A stretch of 46,134 nt of DNA from a virus. The stretch spans positions 1-46,134 of IMG/VR virus record IMGVR_UViG_3300032291_003206; one strand, 5' to 3'. The notes under the pieces are model-generated. The model had not been told where the DNA came from. It saw only the letters and a program-made list of their open reading frames with translations, and made no database searches. The translations under genes were made by a program, and so were the position numbers. This document shows positions 24,935-43,270 of this stretch, piece by piece; the stretch's first letter is position 1, and each line of letters opens with the position of its first letter.

Positions 24935-26647
24935 TTAATATCCTTTTGAGGTTCTTCCTTTTTCTTCGAAGTGTTTCTCAATTATTTTTACTATATCTTG
25001 TTTAAATTGTGATGAGTTAACTAAACTTGTTAATTGTTGTTGTGTTACTGCGTCATCGGCTTTAATATTGAACGTATAATCTCCTTTAAGATTAACATCA
25101 GATTTACTATATGACGACCTTGTTTTTGATTCGGGTTCACCAATCATTTTTTGAGTTGGTTCTATTCCGTATTTTTTTACTAACCTTTCTGAAATTGTTT
25201 TGTCTGTCAATTTTTCACCCGCTTGAGAAACCGCCTCTCTCATTTTTTCCGCAAGTAATTCTTTTGTCTCATTATTAACTATACCTAATTTATCACCCAA
25301 GTTAGACATTGCTTCGGTAAAAGATACTCCTTTGTTTAATTGGTCAATGAACCCTCCCGATTCTTTCATATATTTTGTCAAAACATCTCTTGATATATTA
25401 GAATCTGCGAATTTGTCACTCATACTACCTAAAACACCTGTTATTGTTCTATATAACCCTTCTTCCTCTTCTAAAATTTTTCTTTGTGATGCTGGTCCAT
25501 AAATTACCGCATCTCTTATTGATTTTACATCAGCATTGAGTATTTCAGATACAGTTAATTGATTTCTCAATAAATCTTCGGTTGTTTTGGGACCTTCTTT
25601 TTGTTCTTTTACAAGTTTTTTTATTTCATCGTTTGTAAGTTCAGATAATTTTCTTTGTTCACCGCCCATACTAACTTCATATTCACCACCCTCACCCATT
25701 TTTGCAATGTTTGCCAAATACATTCTATCTTCTTCGGGTATATCAATTGTTGGGTCAATTTGAGAATATATTTCATCAACTTCTCTAGCAGCAAGTGACA
25801 TTTTTCTTAATTCCTCAACATTTATACCTGTAACTGTCGATAACTCTTTTAGTTTCATAATTGCACCAGGATTAATTTTGAATGTTTTTGATGCTTCGTC
25901 AAAATAAGAAAATTGTTTAACCGCTTGTGCTAATCCATTTTGTAAACCTTGTGGGTCATTTATTGATGCATTCATCAATTGGAATGGGTCTACTAAATTA
26001 CCTACAGAAACACCCAATCTTTGAAAACCTGAAGCAACTTCAATCGCCTTTTCAGGGTCCAACACTCCTTCAGCAAATGATAAAGTTTGTCTCATATCTA
26101 CTCTTAACATACTTGCTTGTGCTGCCATTTTTGTTAATCCTTGAACTCCTCCTTCAAAATTAAACCTATTTAATTGGTCAGAGTTGTTAACAACATTTTG
26201 CATCACAGATTCCATATTCAATCCGACACTATTAACATAATTGATTGAAGTTTCAAGTTGTTTACCAACCTTTGTAAAATTAACACCTACATCCGTGAAC
26301 TTACCTACAATGTCATCAACACTTCTACCTATTAGTTTACCGACCGAAAAAAGTTTTTCTACATCTTCTGAAGATGCTAATACGTTTTTTCTTGTTGCTG
26401 CAGCAACTTCTCCTATTGTATTCAAAACATCCTGTGATGAACCACCAAGTCTAGTAATTCTTGGTAATGAATCCGCAACCGCTTGATTTATTTCTACGAA
26501 TCTGGTTCTTGTCGAACCAAAGGTATTACTCAAAGAAAGACTCAGATTTCTCAGTTCATCAACCGCCTTCTTAATTGTCTCCATATTTAATGAAATACTC
26601 TCACTAAGTTTTTCACCAAATTCACCCAATGTTTCCTTATCTGCCAT
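24935..26647 (-). CDS. Tail tape measure protein (gp29-like position)
   Basis: A 570-aa, mostly helical protein. The first 150 residues are heptad-rich (LSESISLNMETIKKAVDELRNLSLSLSNTF), followed by long Ala/Val/Asn-rich helices and a C-terminal section with DVNLKGDYTFNIKADD and TQQQLTSLVNSSQFKQDIVKIIEKHFEEKG. It directly follows the gp26-like/41-aa pair, the place where tape measure genes sit after tail chaperones. T4 gp29 is 590 aa. If it is the ruler, 570 residues at about 0.15 nm each would predict a tail tube in the range of 85 nm. It starts a new unit, with a terminator and a CTATTTAT element just upstream. Confidence 0.75.
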   Translation of the reverse strand: MADKETLGEFGEKLSESISLNMETIKKAVDELRNLSLSLSNTFGSTRTRFVEINQAVADSLPRITRLGGSSQDVLNTIGEVAAATRKNVLASSEDVEKLFSVGKLIGRSVDDIVGKFTDVGVNFTKVGKQLETSINYVNSVGLNMESVMQNVVNNSDQLNRFNFEGGVQGLTKMAAQASMLRVDMRQTLSFAEGVLDPEKAIEVASGFQRLGVSVGNLVDPFQLMNASINDPQGLQNGLAQAVKQFSYFDEASKTFKINPGAIMKLKELSTVTGINVEELRKMSLAAREVDEIYSQIDPTIDIPEEDRMYLANIAKMGEGGEYEVSMGGEQRKLSELTNDEIKKLVKEQKEGPKTTEDLLRNQLTVSEILNADVKSIRDAVIYGPASQRKILEEEEGLYRTITGVLGSMSDKFADSNISRDVLTKYMKESGGFIDQLNKGVSFTEAMSNLGDKLGIVNNETKELLAEKMREAVSQAGEKLTDKTISERLVKKYGIEPTQKMIGEPESKTRSSYSKSDVNLKGDYTFNIKADDAVTQQQLTSLVNSSQFKQDIVKIIEKHFEEKGRTSKGY

Positions 26648-26669: not shown

Positions 26670-26698
26670 AAAAAGGGACCGTTTTTTTAGTCCCCTTT
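26670..26698 (-). terminator. Intrinsic terminator after the tail chaperone pair
   Basis: On the minus strand AAAGGGGAC pairs with GTCCCTTTT (one G-U) around a 10-base A-rich loop, then a T-tract. The stem contains the last codons and stop of the 41-aa gene. Confidence 0.75.
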
Positions 26699-26812
26699 AT
26701 TTTCTTCTACCCATTTATCCAAAAGATATTTTCTAATGTATATTGGTAATCTTTCAAAATCTTGATACGATATATTCATACGTGTGTTTAAATAGTAAAA
26801 CTCATCCATCAT
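26687..26812 (-). CDS. 41-aa partner of the tail chaperone (possible frameshift extension)
   Basis: A 41-residue frame, beginning MMDEFYYLNTRMNISYQDFE with RLPIYIRKYLLDKWVEE after it: compact, helical, aromatic-rich, and without cysteines. It starts 14 bases after the stop of the gp26-like gene, in the +1 (equal to -2) frame. That frame stays open upstream past the chaperone stop and past a TTTTTT run at 26846-26841. The gene could therefore be read as a C-terminal extension by frameshifting, as with the G/GT tail chaperones, or start by itself from AGAAAAGG just before the ATG. It ends at a terminator right before the tape measure gene, exactly where the T part is expected. I am confident that it is coding, less so about how it is made. 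Confidence 0.65.
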   Translation of the reverse strand: MMDEFYYLNTRMNISYQDFERLPIYIRKYLLDKWVEENKGD

Positions 26813-26825
26813 ACCTTTTCTATAA

Positions 26826-27569
26826 TCAGAAGAAAGGGCGAAAAAAGTCCACCCCAAAACCAACATTAACCGTTAGTTTTTCTCCTGATGGGGTTGTTAC
26901 AACTTTTTTCATATCTAATCTTGGTTCATTTTCATCCATAAACTTTCTTATGAATTTAGAATCTGCAATCGGCATTTGTTCAACAAACTTAGCAATTTCT
27001 GCTCTATCTGTTACACCATTCATCTCTCTTATTTGAGCTTCCAATTTCCAAGTAACTCTTGGTACAACTCTACCAGTAGGATAACTATCCATTCTTTTTT
27101 GTAATTGAATGCTTTCACCATAGGTTAATGGTTTTAGTTTTACCGTCACGTTTGAGTTGGGAAGAGTTGTCATAAAACAACCATCCTCAGTTGGTTCTTG
27201 TCCTTTTATTATGGACATTTGGTCTAACATAACGGTTCCTTGGAATGGTTTTTTTGTTTGTGGGTCTGTCAAATTAAGTATCATTTCGGGACCAAAAGAA
27301 GTGTTTCTCAAAAAGATTAAAATAGCCTCTATGTCACCGTCAAGTAATTCTTCAACTCTTACGTCGGGTTCATATAATTTATTTCTCAATAAATTTGTTG
27401 TCATATCGTCTCCCGCACCTAATAATATATTTTCATCAAATGCTGTCATATAACCAACTCTGACTGATTTTTTTTTGTTTTTATAAAAAAGTCCTTCAGA
27501 TGGTAGAGGCACCACATCGTGTGGTAATGTTAAATTCATTTGTCCGTATTCTCTTGCTTTGTCATCCAT
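26826..27569 (-). CDS. gp26-like baseplate hub / tape-measure chaperone protein
   Basis: A 247-aa protein resembling the T4_baseplate (gp26) family. It opens MNLTLPHDVVPLPSEGLFYKNKKKSVRVGYMTAFDE after 11 residues, then LLRNKLYEPDVRVEELLDGDIEAILIFLRNTSFG, a TLPNSNVTVKLKPLTYGESIQLQKRM section, and PSGEKLTVNVGFGVDFFRPFF at the end. In this family the P-L-P-S-x-G start and the final phi-phi-D-F-F are typical. By gene order (tube, this gene, 41-aa gene, tape measure) it takes the place of lambda gpG-type chaperones. The start ATG comes three bases after the U-tract of a terminator hairpin, so expression may depend on readthrough from the tube gene. Confidence 0.82.
   Translation of the reverse strand: MDDKAREYGQMNLTLPHDVVPLPSEGLFYKNKKKSVRVGYMTAFDENILLGAGDDMTTNLLRNKLYEPDVRVEELLDGDIEAILIFLRNTSFGPEMILNLTDPQTKKPFQGTVMLDQMSIIKGQEPTEDGCFMTTLPNSNVTVKLKPLTYGESIQLQKRMDSYPTGRVVPRVTWKLEAQIREMNGVTDRAEIAKFVEQMPIADSKFIRKFMDENEPRLDMKKVVTTPSGEKLTVNVGFGVDFFRPFF
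26841..26846 (-). other. Candidate +1/-2 ribosomal frameshift site
   Basis: A run of six T on the coding strand (codons GAC TTT TTT CGC in the chaperone frame), 13 bases before its TGA. Moving to the +1 frame here (TTT TTC GCC) joins the chaperone to the open frame holding the 41-aa gene with no stop between. No strong stimulatory hairpin is obvious just after it. Inference from layout. Confidence 0.35.
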
Positions 27570-27645: not shown

Positions 27646-28134
27646 TTAATAAACTAACACACAACGGTCAGGTCTTAAACTTACAGTAATATCAGCAAGA
27701 GCGTCTTGGTTGTAAGCTAAGGAACCAAAGTTAGCACTTGTCATAAATGTTCCGTACATAATCCATTTTTCTACAACTACACCTGTTGGGTCCAACATCT
27801 CCAAATCGATATCTTTTTTATATCCTGCAGCATATCCCATACGACCTGTAACAGATTCAGCGTGTAAACGAACCCATTCCATTAACGCCTGTGCGGCTGA
27901 CGGTCCAATTGGGTCTCTGAATTTTACGGTTATTTCATCCCAGTTAAAACGACCCGCAACATAAGTTGAGGTGTTTAAAAAAGGTATTTCTGTTGAGTTA
28001 ATTTTTATCGATGGTCTGCTTGTACTTTCCACAAACCACTCATTGATACCCAAACTAGATGGGAATCTCAAAATAAACCTATTCTGCCTTTTGGGTTCAT
28101 AGGGTATCGGCATTTTCATCAGTAAATCAGCCAT
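27646..28134 (-). CDS. Tail tube protein (gp19-like)
   Basis: A 162-aa protein with the T4 gp19/phage tube outline. It has RQNRFILRFPSSLGINEWFVESTSRPSI (strands of the tube barrel), GRFNWDEITVKFRDPIGPSAAQALMEWVR (the hallmark strand-turn-helix, with W-x-(P/E)-I-T-V-x-F-R-D), and a C-terminal DLEMLDPTGVVVEKWIMYGTFMTSANFGSLAYNQDALADITVSLRPD. T4 gp19 is 163 aa, so the length matches almost exactly. Stacked hexamers form the inner tube through which DNA passes. It lies three genes before the tape measure and two after the sheath, and is followed by a strong terminator, as expected for a highly expressed structural gene. Confidence 0.93.
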   Translation of the reverse strand: MADLLMKMPIPYEPKRQNRFILRFPSSLGINEWFVESTSRPSIKINSTEIPFLNTSTYVAGRFNWDEITVKFRDPIGPSAAQALMEWVRLHAESVTGRMGYAAGYKKDIDLEMLDPTGVVVEKWIMYGTFMTSANFGSLAYNQDALADITVSLRPDRCVLVY

Positions 28135-28250: not shown

Positions 28251-29075
28251 TTAATATTTCTTTTTTATACCTCCTGCGGTTGAATATGTTTTAACCATAT
28301 TATCGTGTTTATCTTCAAAATGTTTTTTCATCAATTCTACGTTTCTTAAATCATCATCAGAAAAACCAATTTCAGGTATAACTGGTGTGAATTTATTTCC
28401 CATATCTTTTTTGATATATATTTTTTTGTTCAAAAGAGCGGCCATTGCTTTTATATAAGAAACAAAATCTTCCATAGCCCTAACCTTTGCCTCCTCAGGA
28501 TTTGTTGCCGACTTTTCATCCCCAAAAGAAACGGGGTTATATCTGTTAAGTTCCAAATATGATTTTATTAATTCTTCATCAGACATATCTTCTTCATCTA
28601 CAAAAGTTCTATATTTTCTTAAATTTTTAACAAGTTCATTTTTGTCTATTCCATTAAAACCTGTTATAATATAATTATAAACCGCTTGTTTTAATGTTTC
28701 AGGAGAATGACCACGGGCAGTTATTATGGCGAAAATTGAACCATTATTAATTGCTTCTTTAAAATCATCGAATGCAGGTCCTGGAACCGCTTTTAATGAA
28801 TCAATTATAAATTTTTTATTTCCTTCAACTCTGAAATTTCTAAAAGGATTTTCTGCAAAACCCACTATTGTTTCTCCATTATAATCAAATTCATTTTTAC
28901 CAATTTGATTTCTATATTCTGCGAAATCTTTGGTACTCATACCTACTTCATTTCCTTCATCATTAATTAAAACTATTTCAGTAGGCATAGAAACAATATT
29001 ATCGTCCCAATCGAACGCATAATATTTCAAATCTGGAGTTCCTTCATTCTTAAAACCTTCACGTAATTTTTTCAT
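28251..29075 (-). CDS. HAD-superfamily phosphatase-like protein
   Basis: A 274-aa protein of HAD type, the fold of phosphatases and nucleotidases. Motif I is FDWDDNI (D22 nucleophile, D24), followed by an STKDFAEYRNQIG cap region. Motif II is IITARG (T119), a Lys in the TNPEEAKVRA segment (K197) is a motif III candidate, and motif IV is GFSDDD (237-242). All four are in order, so the enzyme may be active. The start is set at ATG 29075 (MKKLREGF). The in-frame extension to 29108 passes through the sheath terminator. It lies between sheath and tube, where T4 has no gene, so it may be a virion-linked or tail-assembly phosphatase, or nucleotide metabolism. Substrate unknown. Confidence 0.8.
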   Translation of the reverse strand: MKKLREGFKNEGTPDLKYYAFDWDDNIVSMPTEIVLINDEGNEVGMSTKDFAEYRNQIGKNEFDYNGETIVGFAENPFRNFRVEGNKKFIIDSLKAVPGPAFDDFKEAINNGSIFAIITARGHSPETLKQAVYNYIITGFNGIDKNELVKNLRKYRTFVDEEDMSDEELIKSYLELNRYNPVSFGDEKSATNPEEAKVRAMEDFVSYIKAMAALLNKKIYIKKDMGNKFTPVIPEIGFSDDDLRNVELMKKHFEDKHDNMVKTYSTAGGIKKKY

Positions 29076-29078
29076 AAT

Positions 29079-29106
29079 AAAAAAAAGGGGTGGTGTTACC
29101 CACCCC
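29079..29106 (-). terminator. Intrinsic terminator after tail sheath
   Basis: A 7-bp G+C stem (GGGGTGG with CCACCCC), 6-base loop, then eight T on the minus strand. The T-tract ends three bases before the HAD-like ATG, the same layout as after the tube gene. Confidence 0.88.
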
Positions 29107-29123
29107 AAAGGTACAAATTTTTA

Positions 29124-32100
29124 TTAAACATCTTCAAAAGATGCTCCTGTAGGAGTTATCAAAAACTCGATGTTTATGAATTCCAATGCTCTTGTTGGTT
29201 TTAGATAAATTTTACCTGTTAATGTATTTCTATCTAAATCTTCAGGAGATGAAGAAACTGTTACACGGAAATCATACAAACCTCTATCTCTTCTGATACC
29301 ATCTAAAATAGGGTTTACACTATCCAAGAATTGTTGTCTAACTATTTCATCGTTTTGTTCGAACAAAAGTCTAACAGCAACCGCAGAAATTAGTTTTCTT
29401 GCCTGTAGTAATAATCTACGAACATTTAATCTATTAAGTGCTGAGTCAGCGATTTGTAAAGTTTTATTACCCCAAATAACCGTACCAACATCTGAGAAAG
29501 TTGCAATTGGGTTCAATCTACCCAAGTACAATGTATCTCTATCTTCTTGTGTCAATTTATATCTTGCTTTTACAGAATTAACCAAACCTCTTGTATAACC
29601 CGCCGATGCGAACCAAGGGAATGCGATATTATCAGTAAGAGCCAAGTTTCTACAAACTTCACCCGTTGGAGGTAAATAAATTTGTGTATTATTTACTGTA
29701 TCTCTAACAAGTATCCAAGGGTAGTAAGATGATGTGTAGTTTGAGTCAATTCCTGTTTCTTCTAAATTATCTACCGCCTCTTGAGGTAAGATTCTATCGG
29801 TACTACTACTTGAATCAGGTGTGAACATTTGGAAATCAGGTGTTGTTACTATATAAACTGAATCCGCTCTATCGAACTGAATCATATTGATTGCGTGTTC
29901 ACAAACATTTGAATGGTTAACATAATCAATACCCGCAGTTGCAAAAATATTAATATTAGTTGACTCAGGATTATTGAAAGTATCAATACCAAGTATGTAA
30001 GCGTAATAGTCTGTGTTTGCGTAATCAACAGTATTTTTATTTACCACTATTTGTTTGAAAGTTCCGTCTCCATTAGCGGTTGGGAATCTAGTACTTGCCA
30101 CCGCACCTTGTAAATAACCTGAAGAACCTAATTTGAATCTATCTTGGTTAGTTCTATATTCTCTATAAACATCCCATCCATCAAATCCTCCTGCAAAACA
30201 TACTGTGAATTTACGTGAATATAAAAAATAGTAAGGACTTGTTTGAGAATCAGGTTCAGAACTGAATGATGCCGAACCGACCTCGAAAGCAGTTTGACCA
30301 CTTGTAAAATACGAATTTGAAATTGTAATTACAGTAGCACCTGAGTCCATATGATATCCTCTTGTTAACCAATTCCACTCGGCAGATTCTGTTACAGTTG
30401 CCCAATTAGCTGTTGGATTTTGTTTACCTTTATATTGTACGAAAGAATCATCAACACCTAAAAGAGTTGAAAAACCTAAGTAAGTTCTTCTAACATTATC
30501 ACCCGCGGAAGATACTATGTTATCACCACCTGTTGCACTTCCAAAAGGAGGATTATAAATTGTTTCACCCGCTAAATCATATTTGGTCTTATAGACAGGT
30601 ACCGGTGGTATATTATTTGTGTTAGAATAAACTCTTTGAGTATAACCTCTAAAACCACAAGGTAATGCATCTGATGGATATTCATTAGCCATCTCAACCA
30701 TAATGTATCTTGATATCAGTGAAAATTCACCGTTTGAAGACCCTATTTTTTTAGCGACAAAGTTGTTAGATAAAATATCCAAATTACAATTAGTAAACTT
30801 TTCAATAACAACCGGATTTCTATCAGTATCAAAGAAACTCCTTACTAAAACATCAAAACTATTATTATTGAAAGATATATTTGCAATAGAGACTTTTATT
30901 TCTGTATTAGCCGCCGTTCCATCAGAAATCGATATAAATCTGAACAAGTCAAAAACCTCGTTACCTCTTAATTCAGAAACCAAAAATGGTGTAGAAGGTG
31001 TTGTATATTGTTCCAAATTCCAAGCGATAGATTGTGTACTTCTACTTCTGGCATCAGGTAATGCAATTAATTCACAATCTATCCCGCGGATGTAACCTTT
31101 ATTATATAAATAGTTTAACGCTCCTGGGTAAACCTCCTCAACATAAATAGGTACTTGAGTTCTACTTTTTCCAAAGTTATCAACACCTAAAACTTTACTT
31201 ATATATTTGCTTGAAGTTTCTTCTAAAGAAACTTCAAATTGGAAGTTAGTATTATCTGAAGTATATCCTGATAATAAAAATACTGAAAAAGGATTTTTAT
31301 TAATATAAGAATATGCACCCGTACAAACTAATTGTAAATCATCACCAACAAAATTACCTGAACCATCTTCACTTCCAGGAACTTCATAAATTGGACCGTG
31401 TTGAGTTGAACTATATAAAGAAATTCCTCTTGAACGAATTGTTGCAATAACTAAATTATTATAATTTTCATAAGCCGTACCCGAGAAGGTATATACTTTA
31501 CCGGATAAACCACCAATGAAATCATTATTTCCTACATTAGTTAAACTTGTTACAACATAATAGAAAGAATATCCTGAATACGAATTACCGTTATAGTTTA
31601 TGAAATTGGCGTAATACCAAGTGTCATTCTCCGCAGCGGTTAGGTCGTTGTTATCGAAATTTAAATTTTCAACTGAGTATGCGTTTTGTATATTTGAATA
31701 TTGAGAAGAAAGATTATCATAATCCAATTGATTTATTGCACCATATATAACACAGGTTGTTGCAGAAGTTGCGGGGGAATCCATAATTGAATCCAAGTAA
31801 TCGTTAAAATCTTGTTGAAGAGTTGATGTAGAACCATCTTCTTTTGTATACTGAGTTTGTAAATTATTTTGAACATCTACGGGTAGAGAGCCTCCAACAA
31901 ATTGAATTGTATTTCCCGAACTGGTACCTGTAAAAAGAGCATTCCAAGTACTACCCACTGCCGGATTTTGACCAATAGTTGTTCCGTCAACGTTTGCAGT
32001 TAATTTAATACTCCAAGAAGGACCCGCATCATATCCTGACAATCCTAAAACTCTTGTCACAAATAATTGATTTGATTGTTGTAAATATGATTTTGCAATA

Positions 32101-32345
32101 TATGCCGCTTCATATTTAGGTATTTGTGTATTCACAAATTTTGTTGGTTCTGTGCCACCAAAAAAAGCTTGGAATTCATCATAGTTGGTTATAAAAATAG
32201 GTTCGAACGCTGGACCTCTTAAGGTCTCACCAACCAAACCTAATGTAGTAACCCCTACACTCTGAGCGACAAATGTTAAGTCAGTTTCTGAGGTATACAC
32301 CCCCGGTGAAACGAAGACTTTTTGATTAACTTGAGTAGTTGCCAT
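29124..32345 (-). CDS. Tail sheath protein (gp18-like)
   Basis: A 1073-aa contractile sheath subunit. The N-terminus is typical: VFVSPGVYTSETDLTFVAQSVGVTTLGLVGETLRGPAFEPIFITNYDEFQAFFGG, the segment that links subunits. The conserved C-terminal domain has LNRLNVRRLLLQARKLISAVAVRLLFEQNDE, QFLDSVNPILDGIRRDRGLYDFRV and TGKIYLKPTRALEFINIEFLITPTG. T4 gp18 is 659 aa, so about 400 residues are extra. They lie in the middle (roughly 140-640), an Asn/Ser/Tyr-rich beta region probably displayed on the outer surface. An ATATTTAT element lies 33 bases upstream and a strong terminator behind, making it a single-gene unit. Confidence 0.93.
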   Translation of the reverse strand: MATTQVNQKVFVSPGVYTSETDLTFVAQSVGVTTLGLVGETLRGPAFEPIFITNYDEFQAFFGGTEPTKFVNTQIPKYEAAYIAKSYLQQSNQLFVTRVLGLSGYDAGPSWSIKLTANVDGTTIGQNPAVGSTWNALFTGTSSGNTIQFVGGSLPVDVQNNLQTQYTKEDGSTSTLQQDFNDYLDSIMDSPATSATTCVIYGAINQLDYDNLSSQYSNIQNAYSVENLNFDNNDLTAAENDTWYYANFINYNGNSYSGYSFYYVVTSLTNVGNNDFIGGLSGKVYTFSGTAYENYNNLVIATIRSRGISLYSSTQHGPIYEVPGSEDGSGNFVGDDLQLVCTGAYSYINKNPFSVFLLSGYTSDNTNFQFEVSLEETSSKYISKVLGVDNFGKSRTQVPIYVEEVYPGALNYLYNKGYIRGIDCELIALPDARSRSTQSIAWNLEQYTTPSTPFLVSELRGNEVFDLFRFISISDGTAANTEIKVSIANISFNNNSFDVLVRSFFDTDRNPVVIEKFTNCNLDILSNNFVAKKIGSSNGEFSLISRYIMVEMANEYPSDALPCGFRGYTQRVYSNTNNIPPVPVYKTKYDLAGETIYNPPFGSATGGDNIVSSAGDNVRRTYLGFSTLLGVDDSFVQYKGKQNPTANWATVTESAEWNWLTRGYHMDSGATVITISNSYFTSGQTAFEVGSASFSSEPDSQTSPYYFLYSRKFTVCFAGGFDGWDVYREYRTNQDRFKLGSSGYLQGAVASTRFPTANGDGTFKQIVVNKNTVDYANTDYYAYILGIDTFNNPESTNINIFATAGIDYVNHSNVCEHAINMIQFDRADSVYIVTTPDFQMFTPDSSSSTDRILPQEAVDNLEETGIDSNYTSSYYPWILVRDTVNNTQIYLPPTGEVCRNLALTDNIAFPWFASAGYTRGLVNSVKARYKLTQEDRDTLYLGRLNPIATFSDVGTVIWGNKTLQIADSALNRLNVRRLLLQARKLISAVAVRLLFEQNDEIVRQQFLDSVNPILDGIRRDRGLYDFRVTVSSSPEDLDRNTLTGKIYLKPTRALEFINIEFLITPTGASFEDV

Positions 32346-41515: not shown

Positions 41516-43270
41516 TTATGCCTTTCCTCCGTCATTTATGGTCCAATTGTAAGTATCTATTATATATTGTCTTGCAGCTTCTCCATCACCCGTATACTGT
41601 ATACCTCCAAAATCTGCAATAACGTTTGATTGTAATGGTATTCCGGCCCAATAATTTAATATATTATCATATTGGGCAGATGGATAAGTTTTATCATTCA
41701 TAAATTCTTGTAAACTCCCAACATTATATATATTCCATCCATCAAATTTAGAGTCAAATGCAGTCGCACCACTAAACATTGCTCTCATACTTGTTACCGC
41801 AGATAGTGAAGAATCCTCCCTCTCCCAATTCTCTAAATTAAAATTAAATGTTCTTGCACCACTAAACATTTCATCCATATTTGTAACACTTGAAACATTC
41901 CAAGAAGATATGTTTTGATTAAATCCGTCACAGTTTTTAAACATTGAGTTCATACTTGTAACTCCGCTTGTATTCCAAGAACTAATATCTCCGTTAAATA
42001 CGGTACAACCTTCAAAAGTACTGGACATATCAGTAATATTTGAAGTGTCCCAATCAATAGTTCCATCCGCAGTAGTACAACCATTAAATAGGTCTTGTAA
42101 TGTATCAATATTGGTGTATATATTATTTATATCCCAATCACTAATTGGGGATAAATTGGTTAATGAACTACACCCTTGGAAGAATCCTGTTAAAGAATTA
42201 CTTGTTACTAATATAGGCCCTCCATTCGCAAAACTTGTTAAATTAACACAACCACTTAAAACTGAAGTATTACCTGAAATTACTATGTCACCCCACTCGG
42301 TTATAGTTCTTAAATTTGCCCTATTTTCAGAACTAACACCAGCATTACCATAACTGAATCCTTTTATACTTCCAACAACAATTGTAACTTCATATAATGA
42401 ATTATTACCATAAGTGTGTACTTTAGCACCATCGTTCCAATCAGTAATTGTATCACTTGTACTATCACCCCAGTTTACAGTGAAACTATAATCACCTGTC
42501 GAAACCAAAGGTAACTCAGCAACTGTTGGGTCACCATTAGGTGATTGGAATGTCATTCTTAATATTGGTAGTGGTGTTAGACTTGGTGTTGGGGTTGGTG
42601 TGGATGTTCTTGTTGGTGTTATGGTTACTGTTGGTGTATTTGTTCTAGTTACTGTAGGAGTTATTGTTTGAGTAGGAGTGTTAGACGGTGTTTGAGTATT
42701 AGTTGGTGTTATGGTTACTGTTGGTGTATTTGTTCTAGTTACTGTAGGAGTTATTGTTTGAGTAGGAGTGTTAGACGGTGTTTGAGTATTAGTTGGAGTT
42801 TGCGATGTCGTGTTTGTTGGTGTTTGGGTTGGAGTTTGGGTTGGAGTTGGTGTGGTTGTTCGTGTTGGTGTTTGTGATGGGGTCGGAGTAATTATTACAG
42901 GGCAACATTGCTCAACACTACTTATCGAATCTAAAACAAAAATATTCAAATCTTCCATAATTGGTAAGATTTCAACCCCGTTTGTCTTGATTGTAAATTC
43001 ACCTCTATATTTACCACTTTTGTTGGTGTCTTTTGTTCTAAATTGATATTGAATATAATACTCAGTATTTCCATTAGTATCCGTAAATTCAACTAACTGA
43101 GCAGGAGAGTTTTGTATTTTAGTAACTCCTGATTTCAAATCATACATTGAAAAAAAAACACCGTGAATCGAAAGTTTCGATATAATTGATTGAAAATCAG
43201 GTCTTCCATCATTGATGAATAAAACCTTCAATAACGGTAAATTCGCACCATTTTTAATGTAAAAATCCAT
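41516..43270 (-). CDS. Tail-fibre-like adhesin: Thr-Pro stalk and BspA-like (DUF285) repeats
   Basis: A 584-aa modular protein. Residues 1-115 form a beta domain ([32 protein letters not shown]) like the attachment domain of phage baseplate or fibre proteins. Residues about 127-234 are almost pure Thr/Pro with Gln, Asn and Ser. Residues 235-290 have a PKD-like strand set ([18 protein letters not shown]). From about 320 to 545 are repeated units of the BspA/DUF285 surface-protein type ([30 protein letters not shown] and similar). No signal peptide is present, as expected for a virion part. It probably binds a host surface molecule. The stalk is a natural O-glycosylation target, and the two genes upstream look like glycosyltransferases. 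It starts four bases after an ATATTTAT element. Confidence 0.82.
42612..42791. repeat. Two perfect 90-bp tandem copies in the fibre stalk
   Basis: Bases 42612-42701 and 42702-42791 are identical over 90 bases, encoding two 30-residue Thr/Pro/Gln units. Lower-grade repeats flank them. DNA-level identity implies a recent duplication and likely stalk-length variation. Confidence 0.95.

Follow-up and report, generated by a model that had tools for sequence, protein, structure and literature searches.

The window, i.e. the whole stretch of DNA analysed here, is a viral record of 46 kb (46,134 nucleotides; contigs of its relatives reach 321 kb), and all features described below for it lie on the minus strand. 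The gene at 26826..27569 codes for a 247-aa protein that belongs to the T4 gp26 family, with matches to PF12322 (T4_baseplate; E=1.4e-8, 35.1 bits against a curated cut-off of 24.5) and phrog_150 (E=2e-14), and is assigned as the short tail chaperone (G, or TAC-N). Direct reading of the sequence places its stop at a TGA (26828-26826), in agreement with the original prediction of a gp26-like gene ending at 26826. An AlphaFold model of this short form (pLDDT 87) resembles the predicted folds of viral proteins that carry the annotation T4-like baseplate hub protein (SP-15, TM 0.80), and a fold search of the PDB gave no significant match among solved structures.

The upstream neighbor is a tail tube protein (27646..28134; phrog_4542, E=8.5e-28), while the downstream one is a 570-aa protein (24935..26647) that has no family match in Pfam or PHROGs and occupies the position where Flavobacterium phage immuto and SP-15 have their annotated tape measure. 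The previously noted order of tube, chaperone, extra frame, and tape measure is borne out, with the tube identified by phrog_4542 and the tape measure by position, and is common to the window and its relatives; the chaperone with its extension thus lies between the tube and tape-measure genes, as in G/GT systems, the downstream gene being assigned from its placement in immuto and SP-15. A hairpin that overlaps the extension's stop codon (26671..26698; AAGGACTGA..TCAGTCCTT) lies between the chaperone and the putative tape-measure gene and looks like an intrinsic terminator; its fold z-score is -3.2 in the window and -3.9 to -6.9 in three relatives, the motif is conserved in the alignment, and it is also found in the related loci L029 and L078 (3870-3910). 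Further along, the tail sheath protein (29124-32345) has 1073 aa, of which the C-terminal third alone matches sheath families well, which suggests large inserted domains. Between the sheath and tube genes lies a 285-aa protein (28251-29108) that contains the motif YYAFDWDDNIV and has no Pfam match. A 584-aa protein (41516-43270) shows strong matches to the DUF285 (Mycoplasma) repeat (E=2e-51), which is unexpected for a phage. The regions upstream of the genes in the window are A/T-rich and nearly all devoid of Shine-Dalgarno motifs, a pattern that would fit a Bacteroidota host.

An open extension frame overlapping the chaperone gene

The +1 frame relative to the chaperone (equivalent to -2) is open from 26872 to 26687, being preceded by a TAA (26875-26873) and closed by another ending at 26687. 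Direct reading confirms the earlier description of this frame as running past a T6 stretch (26846-26841) and through the chaperone stop to the end of a 41-aa frame, and it holds the segments FYYLNTRMNISYQDF and LPIYIRKYLLDKW. Both frames are open at 26829..26872, within which a shift must fall, and a +1-frame stop in certain relatives (GTA G) narrows this interval to 26829-26849. The extension (T, or TAC-C; 26687..26839) begins past the shift with ALSSDYRKGMMDEFYY and comprises 50 residues and a stop in the +1 frame, rather than the 41 residues first proposed, which are counted from an ATG at 26812 that is not conserved in relatives. The extension alone has no match in Pfam or PHROGs.

Conservation in close relatives

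A scan of IMG/VR yielded 80 loci with 68-100% identity; a further 80, partly on the same contigs, came from a second scan started from L078. Pooling the two gave a close-relative set of 74 distinct genes with the full region. The +1 frame, the exact spacing, and the end point of the extension are kept in 74/74, which makes the arrangement more than a chance juxtaposition. The original prediction had pointed to preservation of both the T run and the frame relation in relatives as a check: the frame relation held throughout, while the T6 run is broken to TTC TTT in 7/74. That the single frame break joining two open frames stems from a sequencing error or a decayed fusion gene is refuted by the same relatives, as the identical break recurs in >150 contigs and in isolates (Flavobacterium phage immuto, SP-15), leaving this explanation a next to negligible probability.

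Among 25 representatives, variability of the extension by +1-frame codon position is concentrated in the third position (0.31 vs 0.16 and 0.08). Synonymous and nonsynonymous differences in this frame number 3605 and 3224, a ratio equal to that of the chaperone (20504/18473), as against 518/7081 and 1132/6479 in the other two frames of the extension. Together, the period-3 variation and the chaperone-like ratio indicate that the extension is a real protein segment and evolves as such in the +1 frame. Across the same representatives, codons 243 and 245-247 are codon-identical in every case, as compared to 4.9% of degenerate codons elsewhere.

The extension could instead be a separate small protein whose translation begins at 26812, through reinitiation or coupling following termination at the chaperone stop. 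The ATG ATG at 26812-26807 in the +1 frame would allow such a 41-aa product in the window phage alone, and in the distant loci L186 and L191 the tail domain has an ATG of its own, immediately behind the chaperone stop. Against this, the ATG ATG reads CAAATA or similar in close relatives, with the methionines replaced (GGACAAATA, GQI, and similar); the open +1 stretch lacks any ATG in 17/74 and any ATG, GTG, or TTG in 6/74; the codons ahead of the chaperone stop are constrained in both frames; and Shine-Dalgarno use is absent from the window, with AGAAAAGG, earlier suggested as the ribosome site for this ATG, not being kept as a site in relatives. Reinitiation is accordingly rejected for the family and is quite improbable as a general account. 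What persists is a G/GT-like configuration, namely an other-frame extension that overlaps the end of the short chaperone and is conserved without a start of its own (frame in 74/74, six of them startless).

The slip site and the direction of the shift

The string TTT CGY CCT TTC TTC is invariant in 74/74, and its first two codons form the proposed +1 slip site (26838..26843), which in the window is TTT (26843-26841) followed by CGC (26840-26838). TTT/CGY is the only re-pairing site common to all 74 genes: a P-site tRNA on UUU can re-pair one base forward with UUC, TTT followed by C being kept in every one of them. In several relatives (L002, L024, L042, L080), the sequence GTA GA puts a TAG in the +1 frame, and the shift therefore has to come after codon 240. 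In two (L029 and L080), GGA replaces the TGA of the chaperone with everything else retained, placing the stop codon outside the signal. CGC and CGT make up only 5/526 and 31/526 of the arginine codons in the window, and this rarity might in principle render the A-site codon slow; in distant relatives, however, the slip codon is followed by TGG, CTT, CTA, or CAC rather than CGY, limiting the rare-codon idea to the window clade. A classical -1 heptamer (X_XXY_YYZ) does not account for the window clade, as its extension lies in the +1 frame.

The original prediction had left the direction as +1/-2. Both shifts reach the same frame, the T6 run is present in the window and most relatives, and phage Mu uses -2 for its chaperone (PMC5009743). 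However, GAT TTC TTT CGY in 7/74 would put tRNA-Phe on UCU, thereby removing both the -2 re-pairing and the long T run, and in LR756508 (AAC TTT CTA) and immuto (AGC TTT CTT), which lack a T run altogether, TTT and the following C are still kept. The signal is hence not of the Mu type, its re-pairing being impossible in several relatives, and a -2 shift is improbable, with a +1 shift at TTT/CGY, at the end of the T run, being favored. The homopolymer also raises the prospect that RNA polymerase, not the ribosome, slips on it. Transcriptional slippage normally requires longer runs; the one here is only six long and is interrupted (TTCTTT) in some relatives without loss of the extension, making this origin highly improbable.

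A conserved hairpin upstream of the slip site

Upstream of the slip site lies a hairpin (26851..26894) that ends 7 nt before the slip codon, with outer arms at 26894-26889 and 26856-26851 (RCCCCA/UGGGGU) and inner arms at 26875-26871 and 26865-26861. Codon 226 is ACC or GCC, always with C at the wobble position, and codon 239 is always GGG, even though these third bases could vary freely; this yields a CCCC/GGGG pairing whose two strands are both invariant in 54 representatives. Across these, 93.9% of the cells of the stem (outer and inner 5-bp) are paired, as compared to 35-49% when the arms are slid, and double-changed paired cells number 22 versus 5.5 in shuffles, with 0/500 shuffles as high. 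RNAalifold recovers the outer stem; the window RNA folded alone prefers a different fold over the conserved hairpin. The comparative data thus indicate that the hairpin is conserved with compensating changes, and it may act by pushing the ribosome forward. On the downstream side, the consensus energy is only -1.2 kcal/mol, lending no support to an RNA structure there. A Shine-Dalgarno role for the conserved GGGG was also considered and is not favored, because the window genes lack such sites and the GGGG pairs with an equally invariant CCCC.

Taken together, comparison establishes two coding frames with a fixed overlap, no alternative start, and a conserved site and hairpin. We propose, with a probability of roughly 0.88, that one gene gives rise to two tail-assembly chaperones via a ribosomal +1 shift at a real, conserved recoding site. 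The original proposal of a G/GT-type frameshift built on a gp26-type protein is thereby strongly supported by the constancy of the frame (74/74), the coding pattern, and the distant relatives described below. As regards the slippage, its efficiency, the roles of the rare codon and hairpin, and the function as chaperones, we infer the following course. The majority of ribosomes would terminate at the TGA at 26828-26826 to produce the 247-aa short form (G). In a minority, the peptidyl-tRNA-Phe on codon 243 (UUU), with the rare CGC in the A site, would slip one base forward and re-pair with UUC, after which GCC CUU UCU UCU GAU... would be read to give a 293-aa long form (GT) with a 50-aa tail, for which the predicted tryptic junction peptide in the window clade is ...VNVGFGVDFFALSSDYR. 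The hairpin, re-forming directly behind the ribosome, probably favors the forward movement. G and GT would then coat the tape-measure protein, with the tail domain recruiting tube subunits as in lambda gpG/gpGT.

Distant relatives and the T4 proteins

The +1 arrangement extends to LR756508 (TTT+CTA), Microcystis phage Mel-JY01 (TTTTTT+TGG), SP-15 (TTT+CAC), LIS04, GXN1 (TTT+CGT), and Flavobacterium phage immuto (TTT+CTT TGG). It is found in 75/77 distinct sequences of the immuto/LR756508 type, and TTT followed by C or T is present in nearly all distant +1 relatives. The two exceptions among the 77 are the aforementioned L186 (2690-2750) and L191 (2700-2760), in which the tail domain is a separate ORF just past the chaperone stop, with its own ATG and an extra N-terminal segment, constituting an alternative to frameshifting. 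In cyanophage-type gp26 loci the extension lies in the -1 frame, with an in-frame T_TTT_TTC in 75/79 and T_TTT_TTA or T_TTT_TTG in the other four, and Vibrio phage Bakedbeans, Agrobacterium phage Atu_ph07, and LR756511 likewise show -1 on T_TTT_TTC. In Pseudomonas phage Cygsa01 the frame is likewise -1, a clear heptamer is missing, and TAATG might serve as a start, such that reinitiation is possible there. In nearly all distant relatives, the shift falls at a conserved FF/FL motif. A scan of the alignment of a very diverse chaperone set found no conserved stretch with which to search further.

Within T4, gp26 matches PF12322 over residues 1-206 of 208 and gp51 over residues 1-201 of 249. In profile comparisons, cyanophage long forms align with gp51 up to and including the C-terminus (99.4%, E=4e-21) and with gp26 over the short part only, and the tail domains alone of cyanophages and gp51 give a match of 97.2% (E=4e-11). 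Between the window and immuto clades the match is 99.8%, and between the immuto clade and the cyanophages 94.6%, whereas the direct match of the window clade to gp51 is weak (1-22% probability), so that the link between them runs through intermediates. In the tree, the T4 gp26 and gp51 rows group together (98/92), and the 19 +1 rows all cluster with the two separate-ORF rows, adjoining two -1 rows. A single switch of shift direction would be the simplest reading of this tree, which is unrooted and has long deep branches.

Relationship to known frameshifting systems

Frameshifted tail assembly chaperones of the lambda type were reportedly treated by Xu, Hendrix, and Duda in 2004. As with lambda gpG/gpGT and other frameshifted chaperones, the window locus would yield a short and a long product from one gene, with the shift near its 3' end and the gene placed between those for the tube and tape measure; however, lambda shifts -1 and the window +1, and the likeness concerns arrangement, with no kinship of sequence being claimed. 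The prfB-type, antizyme-type, and proposed HSTV-2 +1 shifts (PMC5009743) similarly involve a P-site tRNA that slips +1 in front of a slow A-site codon. The window clade differs in having no A-site stop codon, and the relatives with GGA for the downstream TGA keep the rest of the signal. T4 gp26 (short) and gp51 (short plus tail) belong to the same G family (PF12322), with gp51 being equivalent to G followed by some 48 aa alignable to the cyanophage -1 extension; T4 uses two genes where a single gene with a +1 shift would serve in the window. The gp26 of cyanophages (Kyanoviridae) shares homologous G and T domains and shifts at the same FF motif as the window clade, but does so by -1 on a classical heptamer, in contrast to +1 at TTT/CGY with an upstream hairpin.

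The abstract of the 2022 study by Vladimirov and colleagues is said to name genes 26 and 51 for T4. According to the papers that cite it (PMC12846349, PMC10885494), this study identified the tail chaperones of T4-like phages and put forward that phages of the T4 group have the short and the fused form as separate genes (Vladimirov, Gautam, and Davidson, 2022, Virology 566:9-15). The same citing papers state that certain T4-like phages have two chaperone genes, one short and one fused (PMC10885494), and that poly-T -1 signals are known from T4-like phages (PMC12846349). By these accounts, together with the abstract, the two-form chaperone system of T4-like phages is already known, as very likely is the 26/51 split, and the earlier statement that T4 is not known to have a G/GT system is outdated. 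In a 2016 review, G-T frameshifting was held to be widely conserved "except T4", with the shift being -1, -2, or +1 depending on the phage, and very likely +1 in halovirus HSTV-2 (PMC5009743). Control of tail length by short and long chaperones is nearly universal in long-tailed phages, T4 still being the exception in that review. No report of the +1 direction, the TTT/CGY site, or the hairpin in gp26 relatives was found in the literature within reach, in which Vladimirov et al., 2022 is represented through the papers that cite it.

The window locus and its relatives appear to represent a +1 version of a known chaperone strategy in a large group of T4-like phages. More tentatively, and with some doubt on our part, UUU/CGY might be a distinct kind of +1 signal, operating without an A-site stop and driven by a hairpin directly behind the ribosome in phages lacking Shine-Dalgarno sites, which, inside a single chaperone family, would have taken the place of an earlier -1 heptamer at the same FF codons, the direction evolving with the two-product output kept. 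As the branches of the T4 gp26 family use +1 shifts, -1 shifts, or split genes, they allow one to ask how the direction of recoding changes while both products are maintained, and the +1 site and upstream hairpin together make up a short, almost unvarying stretch that lends itself to testing. The long chaperone form is missed in the annotated records examined; in cyanophage loci (L096-L175, L088, L095), the -1 extension is either unannotated (S-CAM8) or recorded as a small "baseplate hub assembly catalyst" (S-RIM8).
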